A DNA stretch of 64,000 bases, taken from Halococcus saccharolyticus DSM 5350 (GTDB lineage: Archaea > Halobacteriota > Halobacteria > Halobacteriales > Halococcaceae). This document shows, piece after piece, positions 18,460-28,490 of this stretch. Position 1 is the first letter of the stretch. Each line of letters begins with the position of its first letter. Location of the stretch: NCBI RefSeq assembly GCF_000336915.1, contig NZ_AOMD01000025.1:1-64000 (forward strand). The letters run 5' to 3'. Both the position numbers and the translations under genes were made by a program. The notes under the pieces were generated by a model, which saw only the letters and a program-made list of their open reading frames with translations, did no database searches and was not told the DNA's origin.

Positions 18460-19734
18460 TCACGCACCAGTCACGTCCCGATCGGCGGGCGAACCGGCGT
18501 CGAACTCCCGGACCAACTCGTCGAGGACGGCTGGATCGTCGTGACCCGGCAACGGATTGTCGGCGGTCCGACACGCGGCGTCGACGCCCAACCGTTCGCA
18601 GACGTGATCCGCGACCGCTTCGGCCATCCGCCGGTGGGTGGTGAGCTTCCCACCGACGATGCTGGTGAACCCCTCGGTGTCGTCGCGCTCCTCGTTATCC
18701 AGTAGGAAGAAATCCCGCGAGATAGCGCGTGCGCCCTCGCCTGCCGCCGTCGGATCGTAGAGCGGTCTGACGCCCCAGTAGGTGCGTGCGGGCTCGCGGC
18801 CGTCGAGCGCCGGCACCATCGCGGCACACTCGTCGATCATCCGTTCGATCGCTCTCTCCGGCTGTGGATACTCGTCGGGGTCGTCGACCGCGACGCTGGT
18901 GGTGCCGAGCACTACCTGGTTCTCGTGTGGGACCACGATGTCGCCGTCGGCCGGCTCCCGGCAGCGGTTGAGTACGGTGTCGAGCCCCTCGTTCTCGACC
19001 GCGACCATGACGCCGCGCGTCGGGCTCATCTTCAGGTCGATCCCCGCGAGTGCGGCACATTCGCCGGCCCACGCGCCTGTCGCGTTCACGATGTGGTCGG
19101 CGACGATCCGGTCGTCGACCGTCCCGCCGATCGATGCGGCGGTGATCGTCTCGTCCGTGGCTCCGTCCGCGGCCGTGTCAGCGTCGCCGTGGAGGTCGGT
19201 CACGGGGGCGTCGGTGTGGATCGCGGCCCCGTGATCGCGGGCGCTCTGTGCGGTCGCGGCGACCAGCCGCGAGGGGTACGCCACGGCGTCAGGGACCCGC
19301 ATGACGCGCTCGATCTCGGGCGAGAGTTCCGGGATAGCCTCCCGTGCCGCCGACCCGGATCGAACGTCGACCTCGATCCCGAGGTCACGGCACGCATCGC
19401 GCTTCGCCGCGAAGTAGTCGGGATCGTCGCCCGGAAGCTGGACGAAGTAGCCGCCGGTGTCGCGGAGACAGTCGCCGGCGATCTCCCGGAGCACGCGGTT
19501 TTCGGCAATGCACGCCGCGGCCCCGTCGGCGTCGGCCTCGGCGTAGCGCGCCCCGCTGTGGAGCAGTCCGTGCGAGCGGCCGGTGGTTCCACCGGAGAGG
19601 CCGTCACGCTCGGCGAGCACGACGTCGACGCCACGCATCGCGAGATCACGCGCGACGCCGACGCCAGTGGCCCCGCCGCCGATCACGAGCACGTCGGTTG
19701 GTACGGACACGACCTCAGTAGGGTTCGACGCCAC
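18460..19734 (-). CDS. GlpA-like FAD oxidoreductase lacking the [2Fe-2S] tail
   Basis: DAO-family flavoprotein of 424 residues, similar throughout to the GlpA encoded 3 kb upstream: FAD motif DVLVIGGGATGVGVARDLA (about residues 14-32), then [47 protein letters not shown] and IVGGKLTTHRRMAE. It ends soon after this last motif and so lacks the C-terminal BFD-type [2Fe-2S] domain of the full GlpA. Probably a glycerol-3-phosphate dehydrogenase or a relative with another electron acceptor. The GTG at 19734 lies 61 bases after the glpC stop, so it could be the fourth gene of the operon. Confidence 0.78.
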   Translation of the reverse strand: MASNPTEVVSVPTDVLVIGGGATGVGVARDLAMRGVDVVLAERDGLSGGTTGRSHGLLHSGARYAEADADGAAACIAENRVLREIAGDCLRDTGGYFVQLPGDDPDYFAAKRDACRDLGIEVDVRSGSAAREAIPELSPEIERVMRVPDAVAYPSRLVAATAQSARDHGAAIHTDAPVTDLHGDADTAADGATDETITAASIGGTVDDRIVADHIVNATGAWAGECAALAGIDLKMSPTRGVMVAVENEGLDTVLNRCREPADGDIVVPHENQVVLGTTSVAVDDPDEYPQPERAIERMIDECAAMVPALDGREPARTYWGVRPLYDPTAAGEGARAISRDFFLLDNEERDDTEGFTSIVGGKLTTHRRMAEAVADHVCERLGVDAACRTADNPLPGHDDPAVLDELVREFDAGSPADRDVTGA

Positions 19735-21179: not shown

Positions 21180-22454
21180 TCACACCGCCTCGCCCGCCGC
21201 ACGACCGGCAGCGTAGCCGGTCGCGAGCGAGATGCCGCTGCCCGATTTCTCCGCCGCGAAGTCCGCTCCTCCAAGGACGCCCCCGGCAGCGCGAAGGTTT
21301 TCGTACTCGATGCCCCCGTCGGCGTCGAGCGGTCGTAACTCCCCATCGACGTCGACGCCGAAGCGTGCGAACGGATGGTCACCGAACGCCTCGTCGACGA
21401 ACCACTCGTAGCGATCGTCGGGGTGGGGAACGTGACAGTCGAAGACCGGTTCGATCACCCCTTCGCGGTCGGAGTCGATCCCCTTTCCGACGAGGCCCCC
21501 CGTCGCAAGGATGAACTCCTCGGCGTGGAAGGGCGCTCGCTGGCCGTTCCGATCCACGTAGACCGCCTGTATCCGCTCGCCGTCGGCCTCGAAATCCACC
21601 ACCGGGTTCCCGGTCGTCCGGCGGACATCCGCATCGTCGAGTGCCGCCGCAAACAGCCTTTCGAGCCGAATTCCGGGAAGACTCGGCGGTCCCATCGGCA
21701 CCTCGAAGACCGGAACGTCGAGGTGACGTTCGAGCGTTGTCCGAACCTCGCTCGACTCGTCGTCACCGAGCACCGCCGGGAACCCCACCCGTTCCGTGCC
21801 GTCGAGGTGAGGTTCGACCGCCGCGGTGAGCGCTCGCCGCGCACCAGCCGTTCCGGTGGCCGTCTCGACCGCTTCGTCACGGTCGAGCGCGCGCGCAAAG
21901 CGCGTCACCCGCGAATCCGCTCGGAAATCGCCGGGAAACGGAACCGTAACGCCGCGTGTCGCCGCAGGGACGCCGGCGGCGTCGAGGTGGTCGGCGGCGA
22001 GCGGTGCGTCGAACGCGGTCAGGGTCTCGAAGCCTACGAGCAGCGCTTCCCGGGGGTCGCTCGCCAACCCAGCGGCCGTGCTCTCGGGATATCGGGCAGT
22101 CGGCTTTACCGTCCCACCGTGGGTCGGCACGAGCGCGTTCGCGTCGGTGTGATCGCCGTAGTAGGCGTCACCGACCACCTCGTCGAACAGAGCGAGTCCG
22201 TCCCGCACCGAATCGACGCCGACCAGTTCGTAGGGATGGCCCGCCGGCAGGGTGGCGAGTGCGTCGAACGGCTCCGCGACTAGCTCACCGTCCGGGGTGT
22301 ACCCCAGAACGTCGACGAGGCCGCTCGCGTGCCGGAGCGTACTCTTCTTGTGGGAGACCAGTCGCACCCGCGCACCCTCGCGGGCCGCCTGGAGCGCGCT
22401 CGTCATTCCGGCGAGGCCGCCGCCGACCACGAGCACGTCGTCCTCAATCGCCAC
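21180..22454 (-). CDS. glpB: Anaerobic-type glycerol-3-phosphate dehydrogenase subunit B
   Basis: FAD-containing partner of GlpA, 424 residues. N-terminal Rossmann motif [20 protein letters not shown] (about residues 5-24), a [17 protein letters not shown] segment typical of GlpB, and the C-terminal flavin segment [20 protein letters not shown]. The GTG at 22454 starts 11 bases before the end of glpA (stop at 22444), an overlap that implies co-translation of the two subunits. Confidence 0.9.
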
Positions 22455-24195
22455 GGCCGCCTCCTGTCTCGGGGTTGCTACACTCGTCCTGACCGCCGTC
22501 GGTCGCTGTGTCGGCGGTCGACGTGGACGGCCCCGCGTCGAATCGGTCGTACTCGACGGCCTCCTCGCCAGCCGCGGGGTCGCGGTCGCGGTTCATCGTA
22601 GTGGCGTGGAGCGCGTGATTCAACATCGCCTGGGAGAGCTGTTCGCCCCAGAGCGCGTGGCGCTGACCCTTCCAGCGCTCGGCGTAGAGGTCATCGAGCG
22701 CGGCTCGCGTGGTGGCCTCGTCGTGATCGGGATGGAGCAGGGCGGCCATCCGATGGGCACAGAACCCACCCTGACAGTTCCCCATCGAGGCCCGAGTCCG
22801 GATACGGGTGGCGTTCAGGTCGGTGCCGGCATCCACGATGGCGTCCTCGAGCTCGGCGCGCGTGACCGCCTCGCACGTACAGACGACTGGGTTCGGATCG
22901 TCGGTCTGTAGCACGTCGTCGGCCTTGCTACCGAGCCGCTCGGTGCTCCGGCGACCAATGGGCGATCGCAGCCCGAACACCTCCATGTAGTCCCGAAGTA
23001 CCGAGAAATCGTCGCTTCCCGGCAGCGACTCCTCGGCGGTCCGGCACGGAGCGTCGACACCGAGCTTCTCGCAGACGTGATCGGTGATCTGCTCGGCCAT
23101 CAGTCGGTAGGTCGTGAACTTCCCACCCACGATGGTCGTCATGCCAGCGAGATCATCGCGGTCGGCGTGATCGAGCAGGAAGAACTGGCGGGTGATGTCC
23201 GTCGGATCCATGGTACCGGTGTCTGGCGGTTCGTACAGCGGGCGGACACCCCAAAACGAGCGGAGCGTTCGCGCCTCGCTCAGGATCGGCACGAGCTCCG
23301 AGAGGGTGTCGATCATCATGTCGACCTCCCACTGCTCCTCGGGGTAGTCGTCGGGATCTTCGACCTCCTCGTCGGTCGTGCCGAGAATACAGGCGGTCTC
23401 GTGGGGCACCACGATGTCGGCGTCGCCCTTCGGTCGACATCGATTGACGACCGTATCCACCTGCCGACAGTTCATCACCGTCATCACCCCTTTCGATGGG
23501 CGGACTTCGACCTCGACGCCCGCCATCGCCCCCAACTGTCCGGCCCACGCACCAGTCGCGTTCACCACGTGATCGGCCTCGATGCGTTCGGTCGTTCCCG
23601 GCTCGCGGTGGATGCGCTTGCCGGGACCACTCTCGTGGCGCACCTCGACGCCCCTGACCTGTCCGCTCTCGACGAACACGTCCGTGACCTCGGCGTGGGT
23701 TTCGATGCGCGCACCGTGTTCCTCCGCGTCGGCGGCGTTCGCCACGCAGAGCCGGAACGGATCGATGGCCCCGTCGGGCACCCGGATCGCACGCTCGACG
23801 TCACGCGCGAGATACGGCTCGATCTCGCGAGCCTCCGCACCGGTGAGTACTTCCGCCGGAATGTCACACTCCCGACAGCCCGCGAGTTTCTCCTCGAAGT
23901 ACTCGTCGGGATCGCCGGGTTTCTGGACGAACAGCCCACCGGTCATCTCGACCGTATGGCTCGCGATCTTCCGGAGTACGCGGTTCTCGTCGATACACTC
24001 GGCGGCGCTTTCCTGATCCGAGACCGCATATCGCCCGCCGCTGTGGAGCAGCCCGTGCATCCGACCGGTCGTTCCGTGAGTGAGGTTGCCTCGTTCGACG
24101 AGCGTGACGTCGACGCCGCGCATCGACAGGTCACGGGCGATACCACAGCCGGTCGAGCCACCCCCGATGACGAGGACCTCGGTTTCACGTCCCAT
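22444..24195 (-). CDS. glpA: Anaerobic-type glycerol-3-phosphate dehydrogenase subunit A
   Basis: Catalytic flavoprotein of 583 residues that oxidises sn-glycerol-3-phosphate to dihydroxyacetone phosphate. Motifs: [18 protein letters not shown] (about residues 5-22), [43 protein letters not shown] and [14 protein letters not shown]. The C-terminal half has the BFD-type [2Fe-2S] cysteines VCTCEAVTR and [13 protein letters not shown]. First gene of the minus-strand glpABC unit. Upstream AT-rich DNA with an inverted repeat probably holds its promoter. Confidence 0.95.
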
Positions 24196-24227
24196 CCAAT
24201 CGTTTCGGTGATAGCCCTGTCACCACT

Positions 24228-24240
24228 TTACTTTATCGGG
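24228..24240 (-). promoter_or_regulatory. AT-rich promoter region of glpABC
   Basis: The stretch ACTTTACTTTATC (24228-24240) reads on the coding strand as GATAAAGTAAAGT, a TATA-like block about 35-45 bases before the glpA ATG. Spacing is longer than in the leaderless promoters of this window, so a short leader is likely. Confidence 0.4.
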
Positions 24241-24252
24241 CATTCCGACACC

Positions 24253-24274
24253 AGCAGTAAAATTTACTTCTGCT
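24253..24274. promoter_or_regulatory. AT-rich dyad upstream of glpA (candidate operator)
   Basis: AGCAG (24253-24257) and CTGCT (24270-24274) flank the perfect hyphenated palindrome GTAAA-A-TTTAC (24257-24267). It lies about 60-80 bases before the glpA start, in the divergent gap with the Orc1/Cdc6-like gene. The position suits a regulator of glycerol catabolism; the binding protein is unknown. Confidence 0.45.
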
Positions 24275-24422
24275 ATGTTATTTGATGACGATTGCCTATC
24301 CAGAATGTCACGGCTGACAGGAGTGATCCGTCGATCCGACAACGGTTTCGTCCGGAGGCCGAGTTCCGCACTCGTCGGTCGCGCACGCAAAGTTTATGCC
24401 TTCCTGCGGACGCTTTACCCCC

Positions 24423-24504
24423 GGAACCGCGCTATCGGTAAACAACTCCCCGGACGGGCCGAAAACGTCGACCCCCACCGTCCCGTGGGGCCACCGATAG
24501 TTCC
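24423..24504. repeat. Nested inverted repeats before the Orc1/Cdc6-like gene
   Basis: CTATCGGT (24432-24439) pairs perfectly with ACCGATAG (24493-24500), and outside it GGAA (24423-24426) can pair with TTCC (24501-24504). Inside lies a second perfect hairpin, CCCCAC (24473-24478) with GTGGGG (24485-24490). It could be a structured RNA leader or a protein-binding or replicator element. Confidence 0.55.
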
Positions 24505-24533
24505 GAGCGGGGCGACAGCCGGTGACGACCACG

Positions 24534-25712
24534 ATGGACCTCACAGCCCGTATCCGCCGACGACAGCGCTCGGGGAACGACTCGCGGCTGGTGCTCGATC
24601 ACGATGCGATCAGCCCCGTCGCCCACCTCGGAGAGCCGACTGGTCGAGGATCGGTACTCGAACGCCTCCTCGATTACGTCGATCCGGTGTTCGACGGGGA
24701 GCTCCCGCCGAACGCATACGTCTGGGGTCCCCCCGGAACGGGGAAATCAGCGGTCGTCACCGCGCTGTTCGCCCGACTCGGGCGGCTACATTCGCCGTCG
24801 AGATCGGTCATCCACACCTCGACCCGTGGCGGGACGGGTGCGACGCCCGATCTCGTGTACGTCGATGCGCGCCACGCAAGCAGCGATTTCGGGCTGTACC
24901 GGACAGTGCTCGACGCAGTGCTCGACGAGTCCGTACCGGAACACGGCGTCGGCACGGACGCGCTTCGCGCGCGCCTGACGGAATACCTCGCGCCCTACGA
25001 ACGTCGCGTGCTCATAGCCGTCGATCACGTCGGCGAGCGCGGAGCGCGCCCACTCTCCGAGATCGTGGCGGCGTTCGCGGACGACGAGTCGCTCTCGTGG
25101 CTCGTCGTCGGACGGCCGTCGCCGTCGACGCTTCCGGATTCCGTCCGGCCACCGGAACACATCGAGGTGCCCGCCTACCGCGACCTCGCGCTGGTGGACG
25201 TGCTGACGGCTCGTGCGTCGGAAGGAATGGCTCGCCAAGCCGTCGAGCACGAACAGCTCCGACGGCTCGCGAGCTGGGCCGACGGCAACGCCCACGACGC
25301 GCTCTGTGCGCTGTTCGTTGCGGCGGACGAGGCTGTTGCCGAAGGGAGCACCCGGCTCCGCGAACGCGATCTCCGCACCGGGATGAACGCCGTTCCCCGC
25401 CCGTCGGTCTCGCTCGGACGAGTGTTTGCGCTGCCGGACAACCGCCAGCGGGTGCTGCGCCGTCTCATCGACGTCGATGTGGAGCAACGGTCGTCCGTCG
25501 ACGCCGCGGCCGATGCCGTCGTCGCATCGCCGGACATCGATCTGTCGGCAGGAACCGTGAAACGCTTGCTCTACGAGATCGCGAACGACGGTATCGCCGA
25601 ACGTGTCGCCAGCGATCGCACCTCCGAGAGCGTCGGCCGACCACCGAGCCGGCTCGAACCCCGATTCCCGACTGCAGTCTTCCGGCGACTCTACGATCTG
25701 TCGAACGCGTAG
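24534..25712 (+). CDS. Divergent Orc1/Cdc6-family AAA+ ATPase
   Basis: AAA+ protein of 392 residues with Orc1/Cdc6 architecture: the entry segment LVLDHDAISPVAHLGEP, Walker A VWGPPGTGKSAVVTALF (about residues 63-79), an AAA+ lid with PAYRDLALVDVLTARASEGM and ADGNAHDALCALFVAADEA, and a C-terminal winged helix. It is degenerate. The Walker B region reads VLIAVDHVGE, with His where the catalytic Glu of the usual DE pair belongs, and the sensor-2 position has His (GNAHDAL) where Arg is usual. It may therefore bind ATP but hydrolyse it poorly, and act as a regulator rather than an initiator. ATG 24534 preferred over GTG 24522. It sits between glpABC and glpK. Confidence 0.75.
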   Translation: MDLTARIRRRQRSGNDSRLVLDHDAISPVAHLGEPTGRGSVLERLLDYVDPVFDGELPPNAYVWGPPGTGKSAVVTALFARLGRLHSPSRSVIHTSTRGGTGATPDLVYVDARHASSDFGLYRTVLDAVLDESVPEHGVGTDALRARLTEYLAPYERRVLIAVDHVGERGARPLSEIVAAFADDESLSWLVVGRPSPSTLPDSVRPPEHIEVPAYRDLALVDVLTARASEGMARQAVEHEQLRRLASWADGNAHDALCALFVAADEAVAEGSTRLRERDLRTGMNAVPRPSVSLGRVFALPDNRQRVLRRLIDVDVEQRSSVDAAADAVVASPDIDLSAGTVKRLLYEIANDGIAERVASDRTSESVGRPPSRLEPRFPTAVFRRLYDLSNA

Positions 25713-25794
25713 CGCACTGCGGTATCGTGGTTGCGTCACCCACGTGCCGATCAGGACGGCGTCCCGTCGTCGATTCGTCGAAAGTACCCAAGGA

Positions 25795-25802
25795 TTTATA
25801 AT
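25795..25802 (+). promoter_or_regulatory. TATA-like box upstream of glpK
   Basis: TTTATAAT about 90 bases before the glpK ATG, with an AAGGA ribosome-binding-like sequence near 25876-25880. Unlike most genes in this window, glpK thus seems to have a real leader and may use a Shine-Dalgarno signal. Confidence 0.5.
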
Positions 25803-25888
25803 GGTACACTATGGTGTTTACGGACGAAGCACCGCCACTAGTAAATAATGGCTGGATGGGCTCCAGAATCAGACCGAAGGAACACCAC

Positions 25889-27421
25889 ATGACATCCGAT
25901 ACATACGTCGGCGCGATCGATCAGGGAACGACCGGCACGCGGTTCATGATCTTCGACCACGGCGGCGAGGTGGTCGCACAGGCCTACGAGAAACACGAGC
26001 AGATCTATCCCGAACCGGGATGGGTCGAGCACGACCCCGTAGAGATTTGGGAGAAAACCCAAGCTGTCGTGACGGAGGCACTCGACACTGCCGGGCTCGA
26101 CGCCGGCCAGCTCGAAGCGCTCGGGATCACTAACCAGCGCGAGACCACGATGATCTGGGACCGTGATTCGGGGTCGCCGATCTACAACGCGATCGTCTGG
26201 CAGGACCGCCGGACGACCGATCGAGTGGAGGAGCTCGAAGAAGCGGACAAAGTCGAGGACATCAGAGCGAAGACCGGCCTCGAAGCCGACGCGTACTTCT
26301 CGGCGACCAAGGCCGAGTGGCTGCTCGACAACGCCGACCCACTCAAGACCCAGCGCGCCCAACCGGCAGACCTCAGGGACCGCGCCGCCGCCGGCGAACT
26401 CTGTTTCGGGACGATCGACACGTGGCTGATCTGGCAGCTCACCGGGAATCACATCACGGACGTCACGAACGCCTCCCGGACCATGCTGTTCGACATCCAC
26501 GACATGGCGTGGGACGACGAACTCCAGGAGGAGTTCGATGTCCCCGGTGAGATGCTCCCCGAAGTCCGGCCGTCCTCGGACGACGACTTCTACGGGACGA
26601 CCGACGCCGACGGGTTCCTCGGGGCGGAAATCCCGGTCGCGGGCGCACTCGGCGACCAGCAGGCCGCGCTGTTCGGCCAGACCTGCTTCGACGAGGGCGA
26701 CGCGAAGAACACCTACGGCACCGGCTCCTTTTTCCTTCTCAACACCGGCGAAGAGGCCGTCGAGAGCGACCACGGCCTCCTCACGACGGTCGGGTTCCAG
26801 CGCTCGGGCGAGCCCGTCCAGTACGCGCTCGAAGGCGCAATCTTCGTGACGGGGGCGGCGATCGAGTGGCTTGAAGACGTCGGTCTCATCAACAACGCCG
26901 CCCAGACCGCGGACCTCGCCCGCTCAGTGGACTCGACCGACGGGGTGTACTTCGTGCCTGCGTTCACCGGCTTGGGTGCACCTCACTGGGACGGGCGTGC
27001 GCGCGGGACGATCGTCGGGATGACTCGCGGCACCGGCAAGGAACACATCGTCCGCGCGGTGCTCGAATCCATCGCGTTCCAGACCCGGGACGTCGCCGAG
27101 GCGATGGTGGCGGACGCGGGTCTCGACATCAACAGCCTGAAAGTCGACGGCGGCGCGGTGAAAAACGACTTCCTCTGCCAGCAGCAGGCCGACATCGTCG
27201 GGACGGAGATCGTCCGACCCGAGGTCGACGAGACCACGGCACTCGGCTCGGCGTACGCCGCCGGCCTCGCCGTGGGGTACTGGGACGACCCCGAAGAACT
27301 ACGGAACAACTGGCGGGTCGACCGCGAGTTCCCCGCCGACGACGATGCGGACGTCGACGGTCGCTACGAGCGGTGGAGCGAGGCGGTCGAACGGTCGCGC
27401 GACTGGGCGCGGGAGGCTTGA
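25889..27421 (+). CDS. glpK: Glycerol kinase
   Basis: ATP-dependent kinase making sn-glycerol-3-phosphate, 510 residues, full length for FGGY-family GlpK. Motifs: YVGAIDQGTTGTRFMIFD (residues 6-23), ITNQRETTMIWD, AIVWQDRRT, GTIDTWLIWQLTG, GDQQAALFGQTCFDEGDAKN and the C-terminal KVDGGAVKNDFLCQ. The ATG at 25889 is preferred over upstream in-frame codons, because the family starts just before the first strand and an AAGGA lies eight bases before it. One base separates its stop from the next gene. Confidence 0.96.
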   Translation: MTSDTYVGAIDQGTTGTRFMIFDHGGEVVAQAYEKHEQIYPEPGWVEHDPVEIWEKTQAVVTEALDTAGLDAGQLEALGITNQRETTMIWDRDSGSPIYNAIVWQDRRTTDRVEELEEADKVEDIRAKTGLEADAYFSATKAEWLLDNADPLKTQRAQPADLRDRAAAGELCFGTIDTWLIWQLTGNHITDVTNASRTMLFDIHDMAWDDELQEEFDVPGEMLPEVRPSSDDDFYGTTDADGFLGAEIPVAGALGDQQAALFGQTCFDEGDAKNTYGTGSFFLLNTGEEAVESDHGLLTTVGFQRSGEPVQYALEGAIFVTGAAIEWLEDVGLINNAAQTADLARSVDSTDGVYFVPAFTGLGAPHWDGRARGTIVGMTRGTGKEHIVRAVLESIAFQTRDVAEAMVADAGLDINSLKVDGGAVKNDFLCQQQADIVGTEIVRPEVDETTALGSAYAAGLAVGYWDDPEELRNNWRVDREFPADDDADVDGRYERWSEAVERSRDWAREA

Positions 27422-27422
27422 G

Positions 27423-28490
27423 ATGGAGCACCTGCTGCTGCAGATCCCCGTCATCGGAGTGGAAGTCGAGCAGTTCGTGGTCCTGCTCATCGCGGCGCTC
27501 GCCGGTGGTGCGTTCGGCGCAGCCCTCGGTGCGCTGCCCGCGTTCATCTTCACCGGGTTCGCCGTCTTCCTCGGCGAGGGACTCGCGATCCTCGAAGGTA
27601 ATCTCGCCAGTGCCGGCGGTATCGAGGGCGACATCGCCACCGGCGTGACGGGTACGATCGGGTTCGGGATGGTCTTCGGCCCGCATATCGCCTTCGCTGG
27701 CGGGGTGGCGGCGACGGCGTACGCCGGGAAGAAGTATCCCGAGATGAACCCCGCCGGGTGGGACTACCACTTCGGGAAGGACATCCTGTACGCGTTCGGG
27801 ACGAAACCCGACATCCTCGCAGTCGGTGCCGTCTTCGGGGCCGTCGGGATGCTCATCAACCAACTCGCAGCCGGGATCGGGTTCCCGACCGACGGGATCG
27901 CGCTCTCGGTGTTCCTGACGGCGATGCTCGCCCGCGTCGTCTTCGACTACCCGTTGATCGGTCCCAGATCCGGGTCCTCCATCTTCGACATGTCGCCGTT
28001 CGAGCGAGAGGAGGAGCGCGCGGTGGCGGACGGCGGGACGGAAGTCCGGCTGGCGACCGAGCCGTGGCTCCCTCACCAGTACCAGTGGTCCGGCGTCGCC
28101 GTGATCGGTCTCGTCGCGGGGCTTCTCGGTGGGTTCATCTACATCGAGACCGGCAGCATCTTCCTCGGCTACGCGTTCTCCGCGATGAGTCTCCTCTTTC
28201 TCAATCTCGGCGTCGAGAAGATCCCGGTCACCCACCACATCACGCTGTTGGGATCGGTGGGTGCCGTGATCGCGACCGCGATGGGCACCGGCCCGGTCGT
28301 GGCGCTGCTCGCTGCCGGTGTCTTCGGCACGATCAGCGGGCTCTTCGGCGAGGTGACCCAGCGGATCTTCTACTCGCACTCGGGGACCCACGTCGATCCG
28401 CCGGCGATGGCGATCGCGCTGTCCATGTTCATCGTCGGCGTCCTGTTCCTCCTCGGCGTCATTCCCTCCTCGGGCTACTTGGGGCTCTGA
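27423..28490 (+). CDS. Multi-spanning membrane protein of the glycerol operon (putative facilitator)
   Basis: Integral membrane protein of 355 residues with about nine hydrophobic segments, starting one base after the glpK stop. It is not an aquaporin: no NPA motif is present. In Haloferax the gene after glpK encodes a membrane protein proposed to facilitate glycerol uptake, and this protein occupies the same place; the role is therefore inferred from context. Notable loops are FAGGVAATAYAGKKYPEMNPAGWDYH and RIFYSHSGTHVDPPAMAIA, with conserved-looking His and Asp residues. Confidence 0.65.
   Translation: MEHLLLQIPVIGVEVEQFVVLLIAALAGGAFGAALGALPAFIFTGFAVFLGEGLAILEGNLASAGGIEGDIATGVTGTIGFGMVFGPHIAFAGGVAATAYAGKKYPEMNPAGWDYHFGKDILYAFGTKPDILAVGAVFGAVGMLINQLAAGIGFPTDGIALSVFLTAMLARVVFDYPLIGPRSGSSIFDMSPFEREEERAVADGGTEVRLATEPWLPHQYQWSGVAVIGLVAGLLGGFIYIETGSIFLGYAFSAMSLLFLNLGVEKIPVTHHITLLGSVGAVIATAMGTGPVVALLAAGVFGTISGLFGEVTQRIFYSHSGTHVDPPAMAIALSMFIVGVLFLLGVIPSSGYLGL

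Follow-up and report, generated by a model that had tools for sequence, protein, structure and literature searches.

The window analysed here is a stretch of 64,000 bp of Halococcus saccharolyticus DSM 5350 (assembly GCF_000336915.1, contig NZ_AOMD01000025.1, positions 1 to 64,000 of the forward strand). The gene termed orcL is located at 24534-25712 on the plus strand. It encodes a protein of 392 amino acids which was classed as a divergent Orc1/Cdc6-type AAA+ protein with a C-terminal winged helix (approximately residues 296-392). On one side lies the divergent gene glpA (22444-24195, minus strand), which encodes anaerobic glycerol-3-phosphate dehydrogenase subunit A and leads glpABC. On the other side lies the co-directional glpK (25892-27421, plus strand), which encodes glycerol kinase and is a candidate target of OrcL. 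This arrangement had been described in an earlier reading of the bare sequence (hereafter the sequence-only reading) and was borne out by profile matches of GlpA to TIGR03377 (741 bits) and of GlpK to TIGR01311 (702 bits).

OrcL matched the Orc1/Cdc6 profile TIGR02928 with an E-value of 4e-19 and a score of 68.6 bits, below the curated cut-off of 181.3. Four further Orc1/Cdc6 genes in the H. saccharolyticus genome score above this cut-off. In a Pfam search AAA_16 was the top match while Cdc6_lid was sub-threshold. A profile of 51 OrcL orthologues matched the S. solfataricus Orc1 structure 2qby_A at an E-value of 2e-25. The AlphaFold2 model (pLDDT 90.8, pTM 0.88) contained an AAA+ core, a lid and a C-terminal winged helix, and archaeal Cdc6/Orc1 structures were the best Foldseek matches to it. 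The homology to Orc1/Cdc6 initiators and their AAA+, lid and winged-helix architecture are both present in OrcL. A STAND/NB-ARC type ATPase was considered and rejected; AAA_16 tops the Pfam matches, but NB-ARC structures were far behind Orc1/Cdc6 in Foldseek. In a tree with canonical Orc1/Cdc6 proteins OrcL formed a single clade (support 100/100) on a long branch. Conservation in OrcL was highest at the recognition helix and wing (0.62 compared to 0.52 in the AAA core). OrcL shares its fold, domain order, winged-helix DNA-binding domain and sequence homology with canonical Orc1/Cdc6 (TIGR02928; 2QBY, 2V1U). It differs from them in that it scores far under the cut-off, its catalytic residues are replaced, it is linked to glp genes and no ORB or origin was seen in the window.

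Catalytic residues were compared in an alignment of 51 representative OrcL orthologues with 29 canonical haloarchaeal Orc1/Cdc6 proteins. The sequence-only reading had noted His in place of the Walker-B Glu (VLIAVDHVGE; position 165) and at the sensor-2 position (GNAHDAL; position 254). Both replacements were found across the family, with His at each position in 51/51 OrcL proteins compared to Glu and Arg, respectively, in 29/29 canonical proteins. They are therefore fixed family traits and neither chance nor sequencing error. The sensor-1 Asn, present in 28/29 canonical proteins, was also replaced, by Arg or Gln in 47/51 OrcL proteins. The replacing His residues are as invariant as the original residues, which suggests that the pocket has been kept for a role other than ATP hydrolysis.

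The Walker A motif had been described as intact. This is correct for the window copy (GPPGTGKS) but not as a general trait, as Lys is changed to Thr in Natrialbaceae. The Walker-A Lys was present in 29/29 canonical proteins, while Thr was found in 20 of the 51 aligned OrcL proteins. Of 100 orthologues 98 could be scored and 40 of these had Thr (GPxGSGTSA), all of them in the Natrialbaceae branch, which has Thr throughout. Natrialbaceae with the Walker-A Thr (e.g., L058, L071, and L088) still have the glpK promoter site described below. From the sequences of these lineages normal ATP binding may be dispensable. The earlier suggestion that the protein binds but hardly hydrolyses ATP is reasonable for the window copy but may not hold in the lineages that have lost the Walker-A Lys.

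OrcL was present in 299 of 391 Halobacteria genomes and in 65 of 86 genera. In 393 genomes of the phylum, searched with the profile for orthologues outside Halobacteria, all 52 matches belonged to the same order. The sets of genomes with OrcL and with glpK were compared by hand. glpK was present in 298 of the 299 genomes with OrcL, and OrcL was missing from 49 of the 50 genomes without glpK (Fisher 2e-35, uncorrected for relatedness). The sole genome with OrcL and without glpK was G121. Its contig starts inside glpF, so glpK is probably missing through an assembly gap. A further 43 genomes had glpK without OrcL, so OrcL is not essential for having a glycerol pathway. Plasmid-borne copies of OrcL were annotated as "AAA family ATPase" or carried no annotation.

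Orthologues scattered away from glp genes had been named in the sequence-only reading as the outcome that would speak against a link to glycerol. The opposite was found across Halobacteria. In essentially all of approximately 100 fetched loci orcL adjoined glp genes, and at least four layouts were seen. It was located between glpA and glpK in Halococcus, including the window, downstream of glpK-glpF in Haloarcula, Halosimplex, and Halobacterium, and downstream of glpABC in Natrialba, Natrinema, and others. In the fourth layout orcL converged on glpC. The seeming exceptions (G332, G294, G121, and a third copy in G300) also adjoined glpABC or glpF. The only orthologue without a glp gene in its available flank was that of L046, a MAG contig. 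That the linkage has outlasted rearrangement argues strongly that OrcL and the glp genes share a function.

A conserved split inverted repeat, GTTTAC-N19-GTAAAC, with half-site centres 25 bp apart, was found in glpK promoters. When these promoters were aligned, GTTTAC-N19-[AG]TAAA came after a TATA box, and the distance from the TATA box to the repeat was 21 bp in 60 of 64 glpK promoters. In the glpK promoters of Haloarcula (L040 and relatives) a second repeat, CTTTAC-N19-GTAATC, was seen by eye overlapping the BRE upstream of the TATA box, so that the TATA box is seemingly flanked by two repeats. Sites were scored with a symmetric matrix that disregarded the middle bases. It was built on 28 non-redundant sites, to which neither the window nor its near-identical sister contributed. 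Sites scoring above 99% of the null were called.

The best match to this matrix in the 64 kb was in the glpK promoter (27.3 bits, matrix positions 25813-25849). This operator-like repeat, GTTTAC-N19-GTAAAT, is located at 25816-25846 on the plus strand, 21 bp downstream of the glpK TATA box TTTATAAT (25795-25802, plus strand). The second best match was in the promoter of orcL (22.0 bits, 24410-24446). There the repeat CTTTAC-N19-GTAAAC is located at 24413-24443 on the plus strand, approximately 20 bp downstream of TTTATG at 24393. Both outscored everything else in the 64 kb by a wide margin. The third match was a weak operator-like repeat, TTTAC-N20-ATAAA, in the glpA promoter (24231-24261, minus strand; 24228-24264, 5.0 bits). 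It was near background, the next match scoring 4.8, and the low score is due to a spacing of 20 and not 19. The exact pattern GTTTAYN19RTAAA occurred three times in the 3.45-Mb genome, twice at orcL/glpK and once inside a TFB gene.

Using the matrix, the repeat was called in 70 of 72 glpK promoters of loci with OrcL compared to 2 of 43 in genomes without OrcL. It was also called in 50 of 59 glpA promoters of loci with OrcL. Both exceptions lacking OrcL but keeping the repeat are doubtful. The contig of G282 starts inside glpC, before the expected place of orcL, and the G381 assembly is 88% complete. In G072 (L170), a genome of the same genus as the window, approximately 130 bp separate glpA from glpK, and both orcL and the repeat are missing. 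The GlpK tree contained six supported independent pairs differing in OrcL. The repeat changed in the same direction as OrcL in approximately six and in the opposite direction in none. The median p-value of the independent pairs was 0.03 (range 0.03-0.125) when scored by the matrix with G282 and G381 excluded after the data had been seen. Scored by regular expression the result was 4:0 (p = 0.125). The direction of the co-variation is clear, though the independent events are few.

Repeats read outside orcL loci include glp operons. In G276 the repeat was present at the glpABC promoter (L195, 3758-3787, with the glpA frame from 3807) while orcL is 1.7 Mb away. In G360 (L212) it preceded glpABC at a distance of 0.84 Mb from orcL. 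In G068 and G177 (L194 and L213) it preceded an unlinked operon led by a gene similar to that of type-2 glycerol-3-phosphate oxidase, with a score below cut-off. The presence of the repeat at unlinked glp and glycerol-3-phosphate operons argues for a glycerol/glycerol-3-phosphate regulon rather than mere hitch-hiking with orcL.

Exact repeats without glp neighbors also occurred, which, like the copy in the TFB gene, count against the regulator reading. One was located upstream of a UspA-like gene (L193, 4059-4088; G016:C5:270058), with equivalents in genus g11 (Haloarcula-type). This copy may belong to the regulon as well or may be a promoter element conserved by chance. The perfect palindrome GTTTACCGACGGCACGGAAACACCGGTAAAC was found in identical form in two families, at L196 3352 (G003) and at G067:C1:1944921. 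G003 has neither glpK nor OrcL.

OrcL is linked to pathway genes and a shared site is present in their promoters and in its own, as in local metabolic operon regulators. These comparative data are best explained by OrcL being a pseudo-ATPase that derives from a replication initiator and regulates the transcription of glycerol catabolism genes in Halobacteria (probability approximately 0.78). The sequence-only reading had offered a locus-specific transcription regulator of glycerol use as one possibility. The regulator part is favored by the linkage, the co-occurrence with glpK and the co-varying repeat, while "locus-specific" is too narrow given the repeats at unlinked operons. OrcL is very probably the protein that binds the split repeat. 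Its winged helix would read GTTTAC-N19-GTAAAC, probably as two protomers, just downstream of the TATA box and over the expected transcription start at glpK(F), at glpABC and at those orcL genes that have a promoter of their own. Archaeal repressors usually bind downstream of the TATA box or over the start site. Because the repeat spans the expected transcription start repression is suggested, and from this position repression appears rather likelier than activation. The repeat in the promoter of orcL itself suggests autoregulation. OrcL would most likely keep the glp promoters and the orcL promoter repressed, and this repression would end once glycerol or glycerol-3-phosphate becomes available. 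A 2011 study of glycerol-3-phosphate dehydrogenase regulation reportedly described a glycerol-3-phosphate-inducible promoter upstream of glpA1 in H. volcanii, which would fit the proposed mechanism. The nucleotide pocket of OrcL is predicted to no longer cycle ATP and may act as a switch domain that is either static or responsive to a ligand. A more speculative extension is that the inactivated AAA+ pocket, whose two invariant His residues occupy the former gamma-phosphate contacts, senses a metabolite (glycerol-3-phosphate or a nucleotide), which would make OrcL a ligand-responsive repressor and the master switch of haloarchaeal glycerol catabolism.

The alternative that fares best is that OrcL binds the same repeats but activates the glp genes, for example by aiding TBP/TFB recruitment in the presence of glycerol. 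The second repeat seemingly overlapping the BRE in lineages such as Haloarcula would suit an activator, and Orc1-2, discussed below, activates DNA-damage-response genes (PMC9738581). Against this, the conserved repeat lies downstream of the TATA box at a fixed spacing and over the expected start site, and its presence in the orcL promoter fits negative autoregulation. Activation is therefore considered the less likely mode of action, at odds of roughly one in five.

It is improbable that some other glycerol regulator reads the repeat and that OrcL acts only as a modulator or rides along in the glp cassette. OrcL does travel with this cassette, its binding to DNA is a prediction, and the repeat could hitch-hike. 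However, the orcL promoter and, in genomes with OrcL, unlinked glp operons carry the repeat too. It is lost along with OrcL while glpK and glpA stay, which would call for the parallel loss of a second regulator.

The sequence-only reading had also raised the possibility that OrcL is the initiator of a hidden origin, here taken to include a dormant one, at the glp locus. OrcL is an Orc1/Cdc6 homolog, and the origins used by haloarchaeal initiators are usually adjacent to the initiator genes (PMC3936714). Nevertheless this reading is disfavored and considered very improbable. No match to an ORB-like element, TTCCANTGGAAAC, with up to two mismatches was found in the 64-kb window, a search which used a single consensus while haloarchaeal ORBs vary. 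The catalytic residues kept in canonical Orc proteins are lost from OrcL, canonical Orc genes are present elsewhere in the genome, and orcL moves among positions but always with glp genes. In Haloarcula hispanica, in which the OrcL counterpart was not identified, the main chromosome fires only oriC1/cdc6A and oriC2/cdc6E, and deletion of all its other cdc6 genes is tolerated (PMC3936714). A turn in GC skew near 27 kb was not accepted as a sign of an origin as it coincides with the divergence of the glp genes. That OrcL is a functionless, decaying pseudogene-like orc paralog kept by hitch-hiking would agree with its missing catalytic residues but is contradicted by the intact frame in 299 genomes of 65 genera, the invariance of the replacing residues and the high conservation of the recognition helix and wing, and can be dismissed.

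The closest precedent for OrcL as a transcription regulator is Orc1-2 of Saccharolobus (Sulfolobus) islandicus (PMC9738581). Like OrcL it has an Orc1-like AAA+ domain and a winged helix, and it is a regulator of promoters and not an initiator, the role proposed here for OrcL. Orc1-2 is a global regulator of the DNA damage response with a functional Walker B. Viability depends on its ATP hydrolysis, the Walker-B mutant E154A being lethal; it is switched on through ATP binding and off through hydrolysis (PMC9738581). OrcL, a protein of Halobacteria, differs in its link to glycerol genes and in the natural loss of its Walker-B Glu and of its sensor-1 and sensor-2 residues. As OrcL is altered at the Walker-B position essential to Orc1-2 its switch must differ, perhaps through a ligand in the His pocket. 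The predicted core site of Orc1-2, ANTTTC, is asymmetric, while the candidate site of OrcL is split and symmetric. OrcL would add to the transcription regulators derived from Orc1. The haloarchaeal proteins GlpR, GfcR, TrmB, and TbsP are also transcription regulators of carbon metabolism, the function suggested for OrcL, but by their descriptions belong to other protein families; GlpR, for instance, represses sugar genes and is of the DeoR family.

In Haloferax volcanii the gene orc15 (HVO_1537) is annotated as Orc/Cdc6 (PMC2841640) and is four locus tags from glpK, HVO_1541 (PMC3863723). It is probably the orthologue of orcL. A literature search, thin on subscription journals, found no function for HVO_1537, which was named just in the genome paper (PMC2841640).

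Glycerol from Dunaliella is a major carbon source in hypersaline ecosystems, and the control of the activation of glycerol metabolism in haloarchaea is "not yet fully understood" (PMC12853182). OrcL offers a named candidate for this switch, probably HVO_1537 in H. volcanii, together with a defined site. The reason for the many orc/cdc6 genes of haloarchaea is unclear (PMC3936714), and at least one "Orc" that is widespread among them would control the use of a carbon source and not be an initiator. Annotation alone is no ground for counting orc genes as origins. OrcL would also show that the origin-recognition fold can shed its ATPase activity and take on the control of metabolic genes, much as the fold was reused in Orc1-2 for DNA damage.

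Two further genes of the window were noted beside the glp genes. After glpC, at 18460-19734 on the minus strand, a second and shorter GlpA-like protein of 424 amino acids is encoded. It matched TIGR03377 at 450 bits, below the cut-off, and is without the C-terminal part which bears the BFD-type domain in GlpA. A membrane-protein gene follows glpK at 27423-28490 on the plus strand. Its product had no significant match in Pfam or NCBIfam. This gene was found beside glpK in most of the fetched glp loci and may encode an undescribed family of glycerol transporters.
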